Source of the DNA: Enterobacter sp. 10-1
GTDB taxonomy: Bacteria; Pseudomonadota; Gammaproteobacteria; Enterobacterales; Enterobacteriaceae
DNA: 64,000 bases
NCBI GenBank assembly: GCA_002270295.1
Contig: NISF01000001.1
Span: forward strand, 1,612,001 to 1,676,000
Direction: 5' to 3'
Shown piece after piece: positions 6,418 to 53,797 of this stretch (position 1 is the first letter of the stretch; the number at the start of each line of letters is the position of its first letter). The notes beneath the pieces were generated by a model that saw only the letters and a program-made list of their open reading frames with translations, had not been told where the DNA came from and searched no databases. The translations under genes and the position numbers were made by a program.

Positions 6418-9400
6418 ATGGACGTCAGCCGCAGAAAGTTTTTCAAAATCTGCGCAGGCGGTATGGCCGGAACAACAGCTGCTGCCCTGGGTTTTGCACC
6501 CAAAATGGCGCTGGCTCAGGCGCGTAGCTATAAGCTATTGCGCGCCAAAGAGATCCGCAACACCTGCACATACTGCTCCGTGGGCTGCGGGCTATTAATG
6601 TATAGCCTGGGCGACGGCGCGAAGAACGCGAAAGAAGCGATTTATCATATCGAAGGGGACCCGGATCATCCGGTGAGCCGCGGCGCGCTGTGCCCGAAAG
6701 GGGCCGGTTTGCTGGACTACGTGCACAGCGAAAACCGCCTGCGCTACCCGGAATATCGCGCGCCGGGTTCCGACAGATGGCAGCGTATTTCGTGGGATGA
6801 CGCCTTCGAGCGCATTGCCAAATTAATGAAAGCCGACCGTGACGCTAACTTTATTGAGAACAACGAACAGGGCGTAACGGTTAACCGCTGGCTTTCCACC
6901 GGGATGCTGTGCGCATCCGCGGCGAGTAATGAAACCGGCATGCTGACGCAGAAGTTTGTTCGCTCTCTCGGCATGCTGGCGGTAGACAACCAGGCGCGCG
7001 TCTGACACGGACCAACGGTAGCAAGTCTTGCTCCAACATTTGGTCGCGGTGCGATGACCAACCACTGGGTTGATATCAAAAACGCTAACGTCGTGATGGT
7101 GATGGGCGGCAACGCCGCAGAAGCGCATCCGGTGGGATTCCGCTGGGCGTTAGAAGCGAAGAACAACAACGACGCGACGCTTATCGTCGTCGATCCGCGC
7201 TTTACGCGTACGGCATCGGTGGCCGATATCTATGCGCCGATCCGCTCCGGCACCGACATCACTTTCCTGTCGGGGGTGCTGCTGTACCTGATTGAAAACA
7301 ACAAAATTAACGCCGAATACGTGCAGCATTACACCAACGCTAACCTGCTGGTGTGCGATGATTTTGCCTTCGATGACGGCCTGTTCAGCGGCTATGACGC
7401 TGAAAAACGCCAGTACGATAAGTCCTCCTGGAACTACCAGTTTGATGAACACGGTTTTGCGAAACGCGATGAAACCCTGACCCACCCGCGCTGCGTCTGG
7501 AACCTGCTGAAACAGCACGTCTCCCGCTATACGCCGGACGTGGTGGAGAACATCTGCGGGACGCCGAAAGCGGACTTCCTCAAGGTGTGCGAAGTGCTGG
7601 CCTCCACCAGCGCGGCGGATCGCACCACCACCTTCCTCTACGCGCTGGGCTGGACGCAGCACACCGTCGGGGCGCAGAACATCCGCACTATGGCGATGAT
7701 CCAGCTGCTGCTCGGCAATATGGGGATGGCGGGCGGCGGAGTGAACGCCCTGCGCGGACACTCCAATATCCAGGGGCTGACCGACCTCGGGCTGCTGTCG
7801 ACCAGCCTGAGCGGCTATCTGACGCTGCCGTCGGAAAAGCAGACGGATCTGCAAAGCTACCTGCAGGCCAACACGCCAAAAGCGACGCTGGATGAGCAGG
7901 TGAACTACTGGGGTAACTATCCTAAGTTCTTCGTCAGCCTGATGAAATCCTTCTACGGCGACGCAGCGCGCCAGGAGAACGACTGGGGCTTTAACTGGTT
8001 ACCGAAATGGGATCAGGCCTACGACGTCATCAAATACTTCAACATGATGGATAGCGGCAAAGTTAACGGCTACATCTGTCAGGGCTTTAACCCGGTGGCG
8101 TCCTTCCCGGACAAAAACAAGGTGGTGCGCAGCCTCAGCAAGCTGAAGTACATGGTGGTTATCGATCCGCTGGTGACCGAAACCTCCGTCTTCTGGCAGA
8201 ACCACGGCGAGTCCAACGACGTCGACCCGGCGGCTATCCAGACGGAAGTCTTCCGCCTGCCGTCCACCTGCTTTGCCGAAGAAGATGGCTCCATCGCCAA
8301 CTCCGGACGCTGGCTGCAGTGGCACTGGAAAGGCCAGGATGCGCCGGGCGAAGCGCGCAACGACGGCGAAATCCTCGCCGGTATCTACCACCGTCTGCGC
8401 GAAATGTACCGCGCCGAGGGCGGTAAGGGCGCCGAGCCGCTGCTGCAGATGGGCTGGAACTACAAACGGCCGGACCACCCGGAATCGGAAGAGGTGGCGA
8501 AAGAGAACAACGGCTACGCGCTGGCGGATCTCTATGACGCCAGCGGCGCGCTGGTGGCGAAAAAAGGCCAGCTGCTGGACAGCTTCGCGCTGCTGCGCGA
8601 CGACGGCTCAACCTCATCCTCCTGCTGGATTTATACCGGCAGCTGGACCGAGCAGGGCAACCAGATGGCCAACCGCGACAACGCGGACCCGTCGGGCCTT
8701 GGCAACACGCTGGGCTGGGCGTGGGCGTGGCCGCTAAACCGCCGCGTGCTCTATAACCGCGCGTCGGCGGATATCAACGGCAGGCCGTGGGATGCGAAAC
8801 GGATGCTGATCCAGTGGAACGGCGCTAAGTGGGTCGGTAACGACATTCCGGACTTCAACACCGCGCCGCCGGGGAGCAAAACCGGTCCGTTTATCATGCA
8901 GCAGGAGGGCCTCGGCCGTCTGTTTGCGCTGGATAAGCTGGCGGAAGGTCCGTTTCCCGAGCACTACGAGCCGATGGAGACGCCGCTGGGAACCAACCCG
9001 CTGCACCCGAACGTTATCTCCAGTCCGGTGGTGCGTCTGTACGAAGAGGATGCCGTGCGTTTAGGTAAGAAAGATAGGTTCCCGTACGTCGGCACGACCT
9101 ATCGCCTGACCGAGCACTTCCACACCTGGACCAAGCACGCGCGGCTTAACGCCATCGCGCAGCCGGAACAGTTCGTCGAAATCAGCGAGGGGCTGGCGAA
9201 AGCCAAGGGGATTGCCAACGGCGATCGCGTGACGGTCAGCAGCATGCGCGGCTTTATTCGCGCGGTGGCGGTGGTGACCCGCCGCCTGCGGACCCTCAAC
9301 GTCAACGGCCAGCAGGTGGAAACCGTCGGAATTCCGCTGCACTGGGGCTTTGAAGGGGTGGCCCGTAAGGGCTACATCGCCAATACCCTGACGCCGAACG

Positions 9401-23877: not shown

Positions 23878-23922
23878 AGCCCGGCTCAGGCTTGACGCCG
23901 CGAGCCGGGCTGGTTTGGTTTT
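23878..23922 (+). terminator. Terminator after the exported pyrophosphatase gene
   Basis: Perfect 10-base-pair stem, AGCCCGGCTC (23878-23887) and GAGCCGGGCT (23902-23911), followed by the T-rich GGTTTGGTTTT. It also sits just past the stop of the converging ABC-F gene. Confidence 0.75.
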
Positions 23923-25633
23923 AACTCAGTCGGGCATTAATTTCTGCGATCTCCTTACGCCACTGCGCCTGCTGCTGCGGTTTCTGATGCTTCGGCTTAC
24001 GCGCAAGATCTTCAGCCAGGCGCTGTTCCAGGCTAATCAGCCGTTCCAGCAGCGCATCGCCGTCCTCTGCGGGCGTTGCCGCCGCCGGCACCTGCGCTGG
24101 CCGTTCGCACTGGCCGGTAACATTCCGCAGCCGCGCATAGACCTCGTCGACGTCGTGCCATTCGCTGAGGCCCTGGTCGTCGATCAGCCAGAAGCGGTTA
24201 CAGCTTCTGGCGATCAGCTGACGGTCATGGCTGACCAGCAGCAGGCCGCCGGGATAGTCCCGCAGCGTAGCCGCCAGCGCCTCTTTGCCTTCCATATCAA
24301 GATGGTTGGTGGGCTCATCTAACAGCAGCAGGCTATAGCGCGCCAGCGACAGCCCGACAAACAGCAGCCGGGAGCGTTCGCCTCCGCTCAGGGTGCTGAC
24401 CTTCTGCCCGTGACGGGCCCAGCCGAAGCCGGCGGAAATCAGCGCGCGCTTACGCGCCTCCGGGGCCGGCGCAAAGGCTTCAAGCGCCTCCAGCAGGCTG
24501 TGGCTATCGGCCAGCTGATGCAGCGTCTGATCATAGTAACCCGGGCTGAGGCGGGGGTGCAGACGTAGCCCGGCGTCTGGTGCCGCCTGCTGCAGTTGCC
24601 GCCACAGCAGGCGCAGCAGCGACGATTTTCCGCCGCCGTTGCGGCCCATTATTGCGACCCGATCGCCGCTTTTCAGCCGCGCCAGCCCGGTGGTGAACAG
24701 GGCGGGCAGCCCCGGCGCCGGCGGGACCGGTAGTCGTTCCATTTCCAGCAGACGGTCGGCCTGCACCGCGTCGCCATGCAGCGCCAGCCGCCACGGCGTC
24801 CCGGCGGTCACGCTGGTTTGACTCTCCTTGAGACGCAGCACCTGTTTTTCCATCTGTTTGGCTTTGCGCGAGAGATCTTCGTTGTCATAGACCTGCCCCC
24901 AGGTAGCTAACCGCCTGGCGCTGGCGGCGACGCGGTCGATCTCCTTTTGCTCGGCCTTATGGCGCAGGGCGTCGCTTTCATCCTGCTCCTGCAGCGCCCG
25001 GCGAGCCGCGCTGCAGGGGAGAGAGAAGGCGTGCAGGCTGCTGTCGCGCAGGATCCAACTGGTATTAGTTACAGCATCCAGTAAGAGATTGTCGTGCGAC
25101 ACCACGACGAAGCTCCCCTGCCAGGTTTGCAGGAAGCTTTCCAGCCACAGCAGGGTTGGCAGGTCGAGATGGTTGCCGGGTTCATCAAGCAGCAGCAGAT
25201 CTGGCTGCTGAATCAGGGCCCGCGCCAGCAGCAGCCGGGTATGCTGGCCGCCGCTGAGGTTGGCCGCCTGCTGCCCGAAGCTGGCGGCGCCAAAGCCCAT
25301 TTCGGCCAGCAGGCGCTCCGCCTGCCAGCGATGGTTTTCGCGACCCGCAGCGGGGAGGCGAGCCAGTACCGCCTGCACCAGCGATTGCGCTAATACCGCC
25401 TCCGGCAGATGCTGCTCCACGCGGGCCAGCAGGCAATGGTTAGCCAGCGCCACGCGGCCGGAATTGGGCGTAAGCGTACCGTCGAGTACCTGCAGCAAGG
25501 TGCTTTTCCCGCAGCCGTTATAGCCCATCAGGCCGATGCGGTCGCCTTTTTTGAGGGTAAAAGAGAGATCGTTGAATAACGGGCCAAATGCCGTTTCAAC
25601 GTACAGCGATTGTGCGGTTAAGAGTGTGCTCAT
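23921..25633 (-). CDS. ABC-F family ATPase (ribosome-associated or resistance type)
   Basis: Cytoplasmic protein of 570 residues with two ABC domains and no membrane segments, the ABC-F layout. Domain 1 has Walker A GYNGCGKST (37-45), signature LSGGQ (126-130) and Walker B LLLLDEPGNHLD near 147. Domain 2 has GRNGGGKSS, LSGGERSRL and LLLLDEPTNHLD. The inter-domain linker is helical and charged (EQKEIDRVAASARRL, then RKAKQMEKQVLRLKES). ABC-F proteins bind the ribosomal E site; some protect against antibiotics. It is none of EttA, Uup, YbiT or YheS by length and sequence. A leader ORF and pairing arms upstream suggest regulation by ribosome stalling, which would fit a drug-response role. Substrate or drug unknown. 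Confidence 0.88.
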   Translation of the reverse strand: MSTLLTAQSLYVETAFGPLFNDLSFTLKKGDRIGLMGYNGCGKSTLLQVLDGTLTPNSGRVALANHCLLARVEQHLPEAVLAQSLVQAVLARLPAAGRENHRWQAERLLAEMGFGAASFGQQAANLSGGQHTRLLLARALIQQPDLLLLDEPGNHLDLPTLLWLESFLQTWQGSFVVVSHDNLLLDAVTNTSWILRDSSLHAFSLPCSAARRALQEQDESDALRHKAEQKEIDRVAASARRLATWGQVYDNEDLSRKAKQMEKQVLRLKESQTSVTAGTPWRLALHGDAVQADRLLEMERLPVPPAPGLPALFTTGLARLKSGDRVAIMGRNGGGKSSLLRLLWRQLQQAAPDAGLRLHPRLSPGYYDQTLHQLADSHSLLEALEAFAPAPEARKRALISAGFGWARHGQKVSTLSGGERSRLLFVGLSLARYSLLLLDEPTNHLDMEGKEALAATLRDYPGGLLLVSHDRQLIARSCNRFWLIDDQGLSEWHDVDEVYARLRNVTGQCERPAQVPAAATPAEDGDALLERLISLEQRLAEDLARKPKHQKPQQQAQWRKEIAEINARLS

Positions 25634-25642
25634 TGTGACTTA

Positions 25643-25778
25643 CTCAAGAGTTACAGGCATGAGAATGCCTCGTCAAACATCGCTGACGATAACCCGGTAA
25701 GCCCGAGGGAAGGGAATTAAGGTTTGGTTTCTTCGCTCAAGCTAAAGTTATCGCAGCACGATACCGATAACGCTTGAG
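25643..25778 (-). promoter_or_regulatory. Alternative-pairing leader region of the ABC-F gene
   Basis: In the minus-strand RNA a long stem forms between CTCAAGC-GTTATCG (25778-25765) and CGATAAC-TTTA-GCTTGAG (25753-25736): 14 pairs with a four-base bulge. Arm 1 lies in leader codons 18-23, and arm 2 covers the leader's last sense codon and stop. Further down, a second GTTATCG (25693-25687) can pair with the CGATAAC of arm 2. A CTTGAG (25648-25643), ten bases before the ABC-F ATG, can pair with the CTCAAG of arm 1. No T tract follows, so control of translation rather than termination is the better guess. All of this is from sequence complementarity. Confidence 0.6.
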
Positions 25779-25831
25779 GGGGTACGATCGCCAAATGTAT
25801 GTGAAAAAATAAACATTTCACAGTACAGCAT
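25748..25831 (-). CDS. 27-residue leader peptide upstream of the ABC-F gene
   Basis: Short frame starting MLYCEMFIFSHTFG and ending SSVIGIVLR, with an excellent Shine-Dalgarno (AAGGAGGA, five bases before ATG). Its stop lies 114 bases before the ABC-F start. Its last ten codons form one arm of a long hairpin. Leader peptides of this kind control erm, cat and several resistance ABC-F genes through ribosome stalling. I do not recognise the peptide itself, and its translation is inferred from the ribosome site and placement. Confidence 0.6.
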   Translation of the reverse strand: MLYCEMFIFSHTFGDRTPSSVIGIVLR

Positions 25832-25929
25832 GGGGTCCTCCTTTTTTATTCAGTTAGTTGACAGGTGCAGGCAGTGTAGAAGGAGAACGTCGATTTAGCT
25901 AGCGGCTAAATCCAGGAGGGATGCGGGGC

Positions 25930-25956
25930 AAAAAAGCGGGCCCCGTAGAGGCCCGC
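25930..25956 (-). terminator. Intrinsic terminator of maeA
   Basis: On the minus strand a stem of GCGGGCC and GGCCCGC (plus-strand 25950-25956 and 25936-25942) is followed by six T residues (25935-25930). It lies about 50 bases past the maeA stop. Confidence 0.85.
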
Positions 25957-26006
25957 CGCGTTCGCCGTTATCCAGATGGCGTGTCGCTTGTCGAGACCAA
26001 TCGCGA

Positions 26007-45966: not shown

Positions 45967-48602
<2,636 letters not shown>

Positions 48603-49235
48603 ATGCCTGAATTGAGCTCGTTAATGACATTCGCGTTCGTTGCCCTGGGGCTGGTGCTGACCCCTGGGCCGAATATGATCTACCTGACCTCGCGCTCGAT
48701 CTGCCAGGGCAAACGCGCCGGCCTGATCTCATTAGGCGGCGTGGCGCTAGGGTTTGTCTTTTATATGCTGTGCGCGGCCCTGGGGATTACCGCGCTGATT
48801 TTTGCGGTGCCCTATGCCTACGATATTTTGCGCATCAGCGGGGTCGTCTATTTACTCTACCTGGCCTGGCAGGCGATAAAACCGGGCGGTCGTTCGCTCT
48901 TTGCCGTGCGCGACCTGCCGGCAGACAGCGGCCGTAAGCTCTTTCTGATGGGCTTTATTACCAACCTGGCGAATCCTAAAATCGCTATTATGTATCTGTC
49001 GCTATTACCGCAGTTTATCTCCCCCGGCCACGGCAGCATTCTCAGCCAGTCTTTGGTGCTCGGCTTCACCCAGGCATTGATCAGCGTGGCGGTAAACGCG
49101 CTGATTGTGGTGATGGCCGGTGAGGTTTCGCTGTTTCTTACCGCTCGTCCGCTCTGGCAGCGCTTTCAGCGCTGGCTGATGGCGACGGTGCTGGCAGGGA
49201 TGGCGGTTAAAATCGCCTTTGAGACGCGTAAATAG
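48603..49235 (+). CDS. LysE/RhtB-family amino acid exporter
   Basis: Inner-membrane exporter of 210 residues with six predicted helices. LGLVLTPGPNMIYLTSRSI near the N-terminus and GFITNLANPKIAIMYLSLLP in the middle are the family signatures. Relatives export homoserine, threonine, lysine, leucine or quorum lactones; the substrate here is not determined. A GGTGGAG site lies upstream of ATG 48603. Transcribed toward the guanidine operon but separated from it by a terminator. Confidence 0.88.
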   Translation: MPELSSLMTFAFVALGLVLTPGPNMIYLTSRSICQGKRAGLISLGGVALGFVFYMLCAALGITALIFAVPYAYDILRISGVVYLLYLAWQAIKPGGRSLFAVRDLPADSGRKLFLMGFITNLANPKIAIMYLSLLPQFISPGHGSILSQSLVLGFTQALISVAVNALIVVMAGEVSLFLTARPLWQRFQRWLMATVLAGMAVKIAFETRK

Positions 49236-49379: not shown

Positions 49380-49423
49380 AGATAAAAACAGAAGGCAGCG
49401 CACCATACAATTTAGATGATCAA

Positions 49424-49518
49424 ATAGCTGGCTAGGGTTCCGGTTCACCCAGGTGAATGACTGGTCCGAGAGCTGGCGACCTCTGCGAGGTTACACGGCG
49501 GGACAAAAGCCCGGGAGA
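49424..49518 (+). ncRNA. Guanidine-I (ykkC) riboswitch aptamer
   Basis: The conserved blocks of the ykkC class 1 RNA occur in order: CTAGGGTTCCGG (49432-49443), a TTCACC/GGTGAA hairpin, CTGGTCCGAGAG (49461-49472), and ACACGGCGGGACAAAAGCCC with GGGAG (49493-49517). These RNAs bind guanidinium and switch on carboxylases, deiminases and exporters. It lies 60 bases before the first gene of a guanidine-degradation operon, the expected place. Confidence 0.95.
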
Positions 49519-49519
49519 C

Positions 49520-53730: not shown

Positions 53731-53797
53731 CCCCAGGGACGACCCTGGGGAAGAACGCTATTTTGCTGCGGGACGACCCGCCCTGATGTGAGTCCCG
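53731..53797 (+). ncRNA. Guanidine-II (mini-ykkC) riboswitch before guanidine carboxylase
   Basis: Two hairpins with identical ACGA loops: CCCCAGGG-ACGA-CCCTGGGG (53731-53750) and GCGGG-ACGA-CCCGC (53768-53781), 17 bases apart. Twin hairpins with ACGR loops define the mini-ykkC guanidine sensor. Just downstream, GTCCCG (53792-53797) is complementary to CGGGAC (53769-53774), which includes hairpin 2 and part of its loop. That alternative stem would cover the end of the GTGAG ribosome site (53788-53792) and end three bases before the ATG at 53801. Guanidine would favour hairpin 2 and open the start, giving a translational ON switch. Prediction from base pairing. Confidence 0.85.

Follow-up and report, generated by a model that had tools for sequence, protein, structure and literature searches.

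In the ermC, ermB and cat systems, a ribosome that stalls on a leader ORF swaps RNA helices, exposing the ribosome-binding site of the gene downstream. In erm, a downstream partner keeps this site paired (3:4 helix), and formation of the 2:3 helix frees it. Leader ORFs with ribosome-dependent control also precede ABC-F genes, as described for msrD (leader MsrDL), vmlR, vga(A) and cplR in the accessible part of PMC12121999. The same source describes the toiL-topAI system of E. coli, in which the ribosome-binding site of the downstream gene pairs with a short ORF located upstream and is freed by ribosomes stalled in that ORF. A further report, PMC5776109, available as an excerpt, concerns Msr(E). 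Here, we describe a leader upstream of an ABC-F gene of Enterobacter sp. 10-1, located in a 64,000-nt stretch of contig NISF01000001.1 that was analyzed as a whole (the window). Comparative and fold-modeling data make it likely that this leader is a cis-acting translation attenuator that senses stalled ribosomes, with both the stalling and its inducer being putative.

Anatomy of the leader and its competing folds

The first-pass annotation had called a 27-codon leader ORF with a near-ideal Shine-Dalgarno sequence, and both are borne out (Table 1). The 14-pair hairpin placed around the leader end was also recovered, and is formed by 25778-25765 with 25753-25747 and 25742-25736, the stop codon lying in the 3′ arm. 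The further partners proposed for its arms are present as claimed (GTTATCG at 25693-25687 and CTTGAG at 25648-25643), and the real complementarity is longer: 25778-25767 pairs with 25654-25643 (11 of these pairs persist in relatives), whilst 22 pairs join 25757-25731 to 25712-25682. Among the four segments defined in this way, three mutually exclusive helices are possible (1:2, 2:3 and 1:4).

Table 1. Features of the leader region and its surroundings (window coordinates)
Feature	Coordinates	Strand	Details
Terminator-like hairpin 3′ of the upstream gene	25935..25957	-	10 pairs, 8 of them G-C, then a T run; consensus match only
Leader Shine-Dalgarno AGGAGG	25837..25842	-	From sequence
Leader ORF, 27 codons, stop TAA	25748..25831	-	Peptide MLYCEMFIFSHTFGDRTPSSVIGIVLR
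Small hairpin in leader codons 4-11	25801..25821	-	92.0% of cells paired; two-sided changes in 2 of 6 pairs
Segment 1	25765..25778	-	Partner is segment 2 or segment 4; fold, pairing and partner-swap data
Segment 2	25731..25757	-	Leader stop codon inside; partner is segment 1 or 3
Segment 3	25682..25712	-	Partner is segment 2; overlaps small hairpin 3
Small hairpin 3	25671..25688	-	Exclusive with 2:3; 96.0% of cells paired
Small hairpin 4	25656..25669	-	Immediately 5′ of segment 4; 98.5% paired; two-sided changes in 3 of 5 pairs
Segment 4	25643..25654	-	Includes the ABC-F Shine-Dalgarno, GAG at 25643-25645
ABC-F gene	23921..25633	-	570 codons, probably PAF1

The 261-nt region has a minimum free energy of -68.9 kcal/mol, compared to a mean of -56.87 for shuffled sequences (z = -2.85), and none of 200 shuffles was equally stable. 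The minimum-energy fold is the alternative structure (1:4 with 2:3), not the 14-pair 1:2 hairpin. In 92 family sequences, standard pairs fill 94.8% of the cells of the open structure, 95.9% of those of 2:3 and 94.4% of those of the 1:4 core, against 24-48% in slid controls. A C replaces T in segment 1 of 28 of the 92 sequences; all 28 lose one 1:2 pair, and in 26 of them the U-G pair of 1:4 becomes C-G. The lower part of the 1:4 helix of the minimum-energy fold (25765-25761 with 25660-25656) was considered and rejected, as one of its pairs breaks in 24 of 92 sequences and another in 36 of 91; bases 25660-25656 go into small hairpin 4 instead, which leaves this helix unsupported.

The gene upstream of the leader in the window is presumably malic enzyme-like. 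The terminator-like hairpin that follows it indicates that the leader may be on a transcript of its own; no promoter-like match was found. No intrinsic terminator was detected between the leader and the ABC-F gene in a scan of the window for terminator-like sites. Relatives were covered by 187 loci picked for holding the element, of which 94 are ABC-F loci, 78 came from the pattern scan and 15 were model matches; T runs of at least five occur in 44 of them, a count of T runs and not of terminators. The twelve runs that were inspected all map to the small hairpin 4 loop, and a loose pattern places 34 of the 44 after a hairpin-4-like arm. The lack of a terminator between leader and gene, together with the one after the preceding gene, points to translation attenuation, probably on a separate transcript. 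One possibility is that the same switch has Rho-dependent termination as its output, instead of, or besides, translation initiation. The linker after the hairpin is C-rich and G-poor (median C 0.37 and G 0.14 in the 187 loci), and translational repression of toiL-topAI leads to Rho termination, according to the available text of PMC12121999. However, segment 4 spans the ribosome-binding site of the ABC-F gene, which argues for direct action on initiation, and we regard a Rho output as a serious contender that is nonetheless unlikely.

Several other RNA elements were observed in the window. A Guanidine-I riboswitch (49421-49519, + strand) lies upstream of a putative ABC transporter of the urea type and of two urea amidolyase-associated genes, and a Guanidine-II riboswitch (53731-53781, + strand), about 4 kb away, precedes urea carboxylase; two guanidine riboswitch classes are thus found on one pathway, possibly in a single gene cluster. 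A ZMP/ZTP riboswitch (48503-48583, + strand) is located directly before a LysE/RhtB-like exporter gene (48603-49235), whose family scores fall below the NCBIfam cut-offs. To our knowledge, an exporter gene is an unusual output for a ZMP/ZTP riboswitch. A SECIS_3 selenocysteine insertion element is present at 7000-7058 (+ strand).

Conservation of the leader and its association with an ABC-F gene

Co-evolution of the helices was assessed by a partner-swap test, which compares native with permuted partners over 1000 permutations and uses no column alignment. In 29 divergent leaders (mutual similarity ratio <0.85) picked from the 187, the native partners scored -15.25 for 1:4, compared to -12.82 for permuted partners (z = -5.4), -29.68 compared to -26.34 for 2:3 (z = -7.4), and -18.98 compared to -16.54 for 1:2 (z = -6.1), with 0 of 1000 permutations in each case. 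Nine control segment pairs gave z values from +0.3 to -1.8; two of these controls fell below the 5% level (36 and 49 of 1000). All three helices likewise gave 0 of 1000 each in 13 deep lineages. An earlier swap test of 1:4 with 116 distinct pairs yielded -14.68 against -13.23, and 98 of the 116 pairs were better than their own mean swap. In L231, a leader of family f25, segments 1 and 4 consist mostly of different letters, yet form eight adjacent pairs. The 1:4 pairing is interrupted in L236, a relative of L231.

Column-based covariation scores were less uniform. The 1:4 score was reached by none of 500 shuffles on alignment A1 and by 25 of 500 (marginal) on alignment A2 (46 more divergent sequences), the weaker score on A2 being partly due to the long-insert sequences L125 and L158, which are out of register. 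The 2:3 score was no higher than that of shuffles (407 of 500 as high), and further pair types of the open structure were within the shuffle range (453 of 500 as high), both in 92 sequences. Judged by the sequences, three mutually exclusive helices co-evolve, one of which would hide the ABC-F ribosome-binding site, and the column counts are mixed.

The leader ORF is intact, in frame with the conserved stop and 24-28 codons long in 184 of the 187 loci, and in 153 of 156 distinct sequences (a total of 155 instead of 156 if L059, which is cut one base off, equals L165). Three loci are without an intact leader ORF. In L059 and L165, the latter from Phytobacter massiliensis, the frame is broken before the conserved stop and the RNA arms are kept; the two may stem from one assembly, so that the broken frame may be a sequencing error. 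Over codons 2-17, the reading frame has a pN/pS ratio of 0.72, compared to 0.74 for the +1 frame and 1.01 for the +2 frame, so that this test lends no support to peptide selection; for codons 18-27 the ratio is 1.82, which we attribute to RNA constraint. Very high nucleotide conservation and a pN/pS that does not demonstrate amino-acid constraint would fit a ligand-binding riboswitch, or of a protein-binding RNA (e.g., one mediating ABC-F autoregulation), with an incidental short ORF. An aptamer, however, needs none of the features that are kept in the 184 loci, namely the start, frame, length and ribosome-binding site of the ORF. The competing helices, moreover, account for many of the conserved bases, and Rfam returned no match to the element at E values up to 5. 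We consider such a riboswitch or protein-binding RNA improbable.

Numbered from the C-terminal end, the residues of the 184 intact leaders include Arg -1 in 183, Leu -2 in 180, Ser -9 in all 184 and Gly -14 in 152. Two codons are in use for Gly -14 (present in 22 of 29 representatives) and likewise for Arg -12 (in 15 of the 29), which hints at peptide-level selection. The invariant Ser codon, which is often next to a second Ser codon, might be read as the hungry codon of an amino-acid-starvation attenuator, at which ribosomes pause. Yet there is no conserved run of codons for one amino acid, and the controlled gene encodes an ABC-F protein and is not biosynthetic. The constancy of Ser -9 and of the last codons may also arise at the RNA level, since these codons sit in paired segments and may be kept for pairing. 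A starvation attenuator is therefore highly improbable.

The leader was found to accompany the ABC-F gene closely. In the genus sample, the gene and the exact hairpin core are present in 20 of 20 genomes; in one of these genomes (G016), the ABC-F gene is in two pieces and the leader is intact. In the family sample, the gene occurs in 80 of 295 genomes and 38 of 154 genera. A leader ORF with an AGGAG-type site precedes 94 of the 96 ABC-F loci of the two samples, with 26-28 codons in 93 of the 94, and the two loci without it are homologues of 42% identity. Leader conservation, the check that had been proposed at the outset, thus held for the ORF (94 of 96 loci) and for the hairpin core (20 of 20 genus genomes), and pN/pS did not demonstrate amino-acid constraint.

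A DNA pattern scan of named genomes that used RNA letters only, and was blind to protein, matched at least 117 stretches. Among the matches listed (80 loci), 76 have an ABC-F match downstream of the element, beginning 117-198 nt from it in 75 cases (in L171, the best piece begins further in), and in the other four the sequence ends 73-313 nt after the element. Upstream, a malic-enzyme-like gene is found in 36 of these 80 listed loci, and at least 8 of the other 44 have less than 1.5 kb of upstream DNA. Hosts among the listed matches, which take in bacteria of gut and water, include Klebsiella, Enterobacter, Citrobacter, Kosakonia, Pantoea, Erwinia, Dickeya, Serratia, Yersinia, Ewingella, Vibrio, Photobacterium and Parendozoicomonas. 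The sets of loci overlap (L122 and L025 are identical in sequence), so the loci are not independent. Records labeled Pseudomonas sp. T1-3-2 and Chryseobacterium sp. 18061 look like mislabeled or contaminating enterobacterial DNA. Orthologues of the gene are also present on 45 plasmid records, 15 from Pantoea and 12 from Rahnella, with 41 of the 45 typed as non-mobilizable.

A covariance model of the closed fold, built from 46 sequences, some of which come from genomes within the searched sample, detected the leader in 38 of 345 genomes of the order, and the protein was matched in 41 of the 345. All 38 leaders directly precede an ABC-F match and end within about 13 nt of it; all 38 ABC-F matches of at least 51% identity have the leader, and the three extra protein matches are homologues of 40-42% identity. 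Thirteen of the genomes, from one genus of family f25, gave weak E values (7.7e-8 to 3.5e-6), each match being directly before the gene. In E. coli genomes, neither the leader nor the gene was found, near and distant homologues alike. Two ABC-F homologues of 40-41% identity (L246 and L247) have no such leader; by eye, another hairpin precedes the start codon, and a similar 22-codon ORF lies further upstream, possibly an analogous control.

The gene downstream of the leader had been annotated as a chromosomal ABC-F gene, and the ABC-F assignment is confirmed by the domain architecture of its product, which has two ABC domains whose Walker and signature motifs are intact, a helical linker and no membrane domain. 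The protein scores 379.2 bits against NCBIfam NF000355 (ribosomal protection-like ABC-F), just below the cut-off of 380, and the model matches 28 of 28 orthologues at E values of 1e-80 or better. The host genome encodes four other ABC-F proteins, which we take to be the E. coli-type ones, including a YbiT-like protein. From the H-motif to the second Walker A, the protein has 151 residues compared to 140-143 in these four; a linker about 30 residues longer than that of EttA, a trait of ARE1-5, is absent, as the excess over the genome's other ABC-Fs is just 8-11 residues. In the first domain, the distance from Walker A to the signature is 28-36 residues shorter than in three of the four. The predicted structure (mean pLDDT 87.6) matches ribosome-bound ABC-Fs, human ABCF1 first, and resistance and housekeeping ABC-Fs tie. 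The linkers of PoxtA and OptrA are only 4-5 residues longer than that of EttA, according to the accessible part of PMC8987054. The subfamily PAF1, as described in the available text of PMC6723617, occurs in Vibrio, Enterobacter, Klebsiella, Serratia and Citrobacter, and not in Escherichia; in 2019, an antibiotic-resistance role was predicted for this subfamily, which several pathogens carry, and that text shows no tested function. The leader hosts include the PAF1 genera and more, and this distribution, together with the four E. coli-type ABC-Fs present besides it, indicates that the protein probably belongs to PAF1.

Modeled ribosome position and the proposed mechanism

The effect of a leader-bound ribosome was modeled by giving the ribosome a footprint that extends 15 nt in both directions from its P site, and folding the remainder of the RNA. 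In 92 family leaders, the modeled probability that the ABC-F Shine-Dalgarno is unpaired is 0.26 without a ribosome, 0.45 with a ribosome at codon 14, 0.57 at codon 18, 0.55 at codon 20 and 0.43 at codon 24. A gain of more than 0.1 was predicted for 75 of the 92 at codon 18 and for 78 at codon 20. Without a ribosome, 63 of 92 leaders favor 1:4 over 1:2, and the probability of 1:4 is below 0.1 in 25. In the 29 divergent leaders, the start region is unpaired with a modeled probability of 0.39 without a ribosome and 0.52 at the best ribosome position; when the P site is placed eight codons upstream of the stop, 15 of the 29 gain more than 0.1 and none loses as much. Modeled accessibility does not clearly change with ribosome position in L104, L108 and L231. 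In the window's own leader, the predicted values are 0.37 without a ribosome, 0.55 at codon 14, 0.43 at codon 16, 0.35 at codon 18 and 0.32 at codon 20. The gain is mainly at codon 14, with none at codons 18-22, an effect of a short local hairpin that involves the first ABC-F codons. The proposal of the first-pass annotation that the position of a ribosome in the leader decides which pairs form is thus favored by the maintained ORF, the co-evolution of the helices, the co-occurrence with the ABC-F gene and the modeled gain in 75-78 of 92 leaders, and is weakened by the window's own leader at codons 18-22 and by a gain in only 15 of the 29 divergent leaders.

These calculations also bear on the site of a putative stall. 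The leader end is conserved (I-V/A-L-R-stop), with Arg and Leu nearly invariant, and MsrDL stalls at its end, where it blocks release-factor binding (Fostier 2023, cited in the accessible part of PMC12121999). An effective stall at this end, with queued ribosomes covering segment 1, is accordingly conceivable. A single ribosome on the last codons, however, leaves segment 1 free in the model, with the Shine-Dalgarno unpaired at a probability of just 0.22-0.25 (92 leaders), and the end codons belong to segment 2 as well. A stall at the leader end is rather doubtful.

We favor a mechanism in which the leader peptide would be translated constantly and a stall would occur in the second half of the leader (approximately codons 14-24). 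When the leader is finished, segment 1 would pair with segment 4, hiding the ABC-F ribosome-binding site, 2:3 would form, and little ABC-F protein would be made. A ribosome stalled in the second half would cover segment 1; 2:3 could still form, segment 4 would be unpaired, and ABC-F protein would be made. The local 1:2 hairpin would represent a third state, competing with both others. The ABC-F product may then bind the ribosome and relieve the stall, thereby completing a feedback loop.

Studies of drug-dependent stalling offer a candidate for the stall site. Chloramphenicol and linezolid stall best with a penultimate Ala, and less with Ser or Thr (PMC8987054, available in part). With Ser -9 as the penultimate residue, the P site would be eight codons upstream of the stop, which falls among the best modeled positions, and we treat its possible role as the penultimate residue of a drug stall as a lead, not a result. 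A tentative reading, which we hold to be unlikely overall, is that leader and gene form an ancient chromosomal, drug-inducible ribosome protection system of several Gammaproteobacteria families, in which the leader would sense phenicol/oxazolidinone-type inhibitors or their natural analogues, and PAF1 would clear stalls, including that on its own leader. The stall would occur with the invariant Ser -9 in the penultimate position, at about the best modeled position for freeing the ABC-F start. Such a system could have been overlooked because it is absent from E. coli. If this were true, Klebsiella, Enterobacter, Serratia, Vibrio and their relatives would have an inducible ribosome-protection gene that is invisible to E. 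coli-based work. The presence of the leader beside every close orthologue in the 345-genome sample is independent evidence that the gene answers to the state of the ribosome, and the switch suggests an unstudied drug- or stress-inducible defense.

Comparison with known systems

Our findings suggest that the leader before the gammaproteobacterial ABC-F gene is a variant of known stalling-leader control, seemingly an undescribed one. A literature search, which covered few subscription papers and no bioRxiv preprints, found no such leader described for a gammaproteobacterial ABC-F, and among the papers listed, only the 2019 phylogeny contained both PAF1 and ABCF. PAF1 in that phylogeny occurs in host genera of the present ABC-F and, likewise, not in Escherichia; the accessible part of the text (PMC6723617) does not mention a leader, and resistance is only predicted there.

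Like msrD, vmlR, vga(A) and cplR, the present gene is an ABC-F gene preceded by a leader ORF; those systems are Gram-positive, and vmlR adds transcription attenuation (available text of PMC12121999 and PMC9226507). The first-pass annotation had assigned the locus the logic of erm, cat and resistance ABC-F leaders. A stalling-type helix switch before an ABC-F gene was indeed found, but its topology is not that of erm: here, the coding region of the leader itself would hold the ribosome-binding site, through 1:4. The arrangement is closer to that of toiL-topAI, from which it differs in several respects. In the available text of PMC12121999, topAI-yjhQ is a toxin-antitoxin pair and the pairing spans toiL, whereas in the leader described here the second half pairs, an additional 2:3 helix and a third hairpin are present, and the output is an ABC-F protein.
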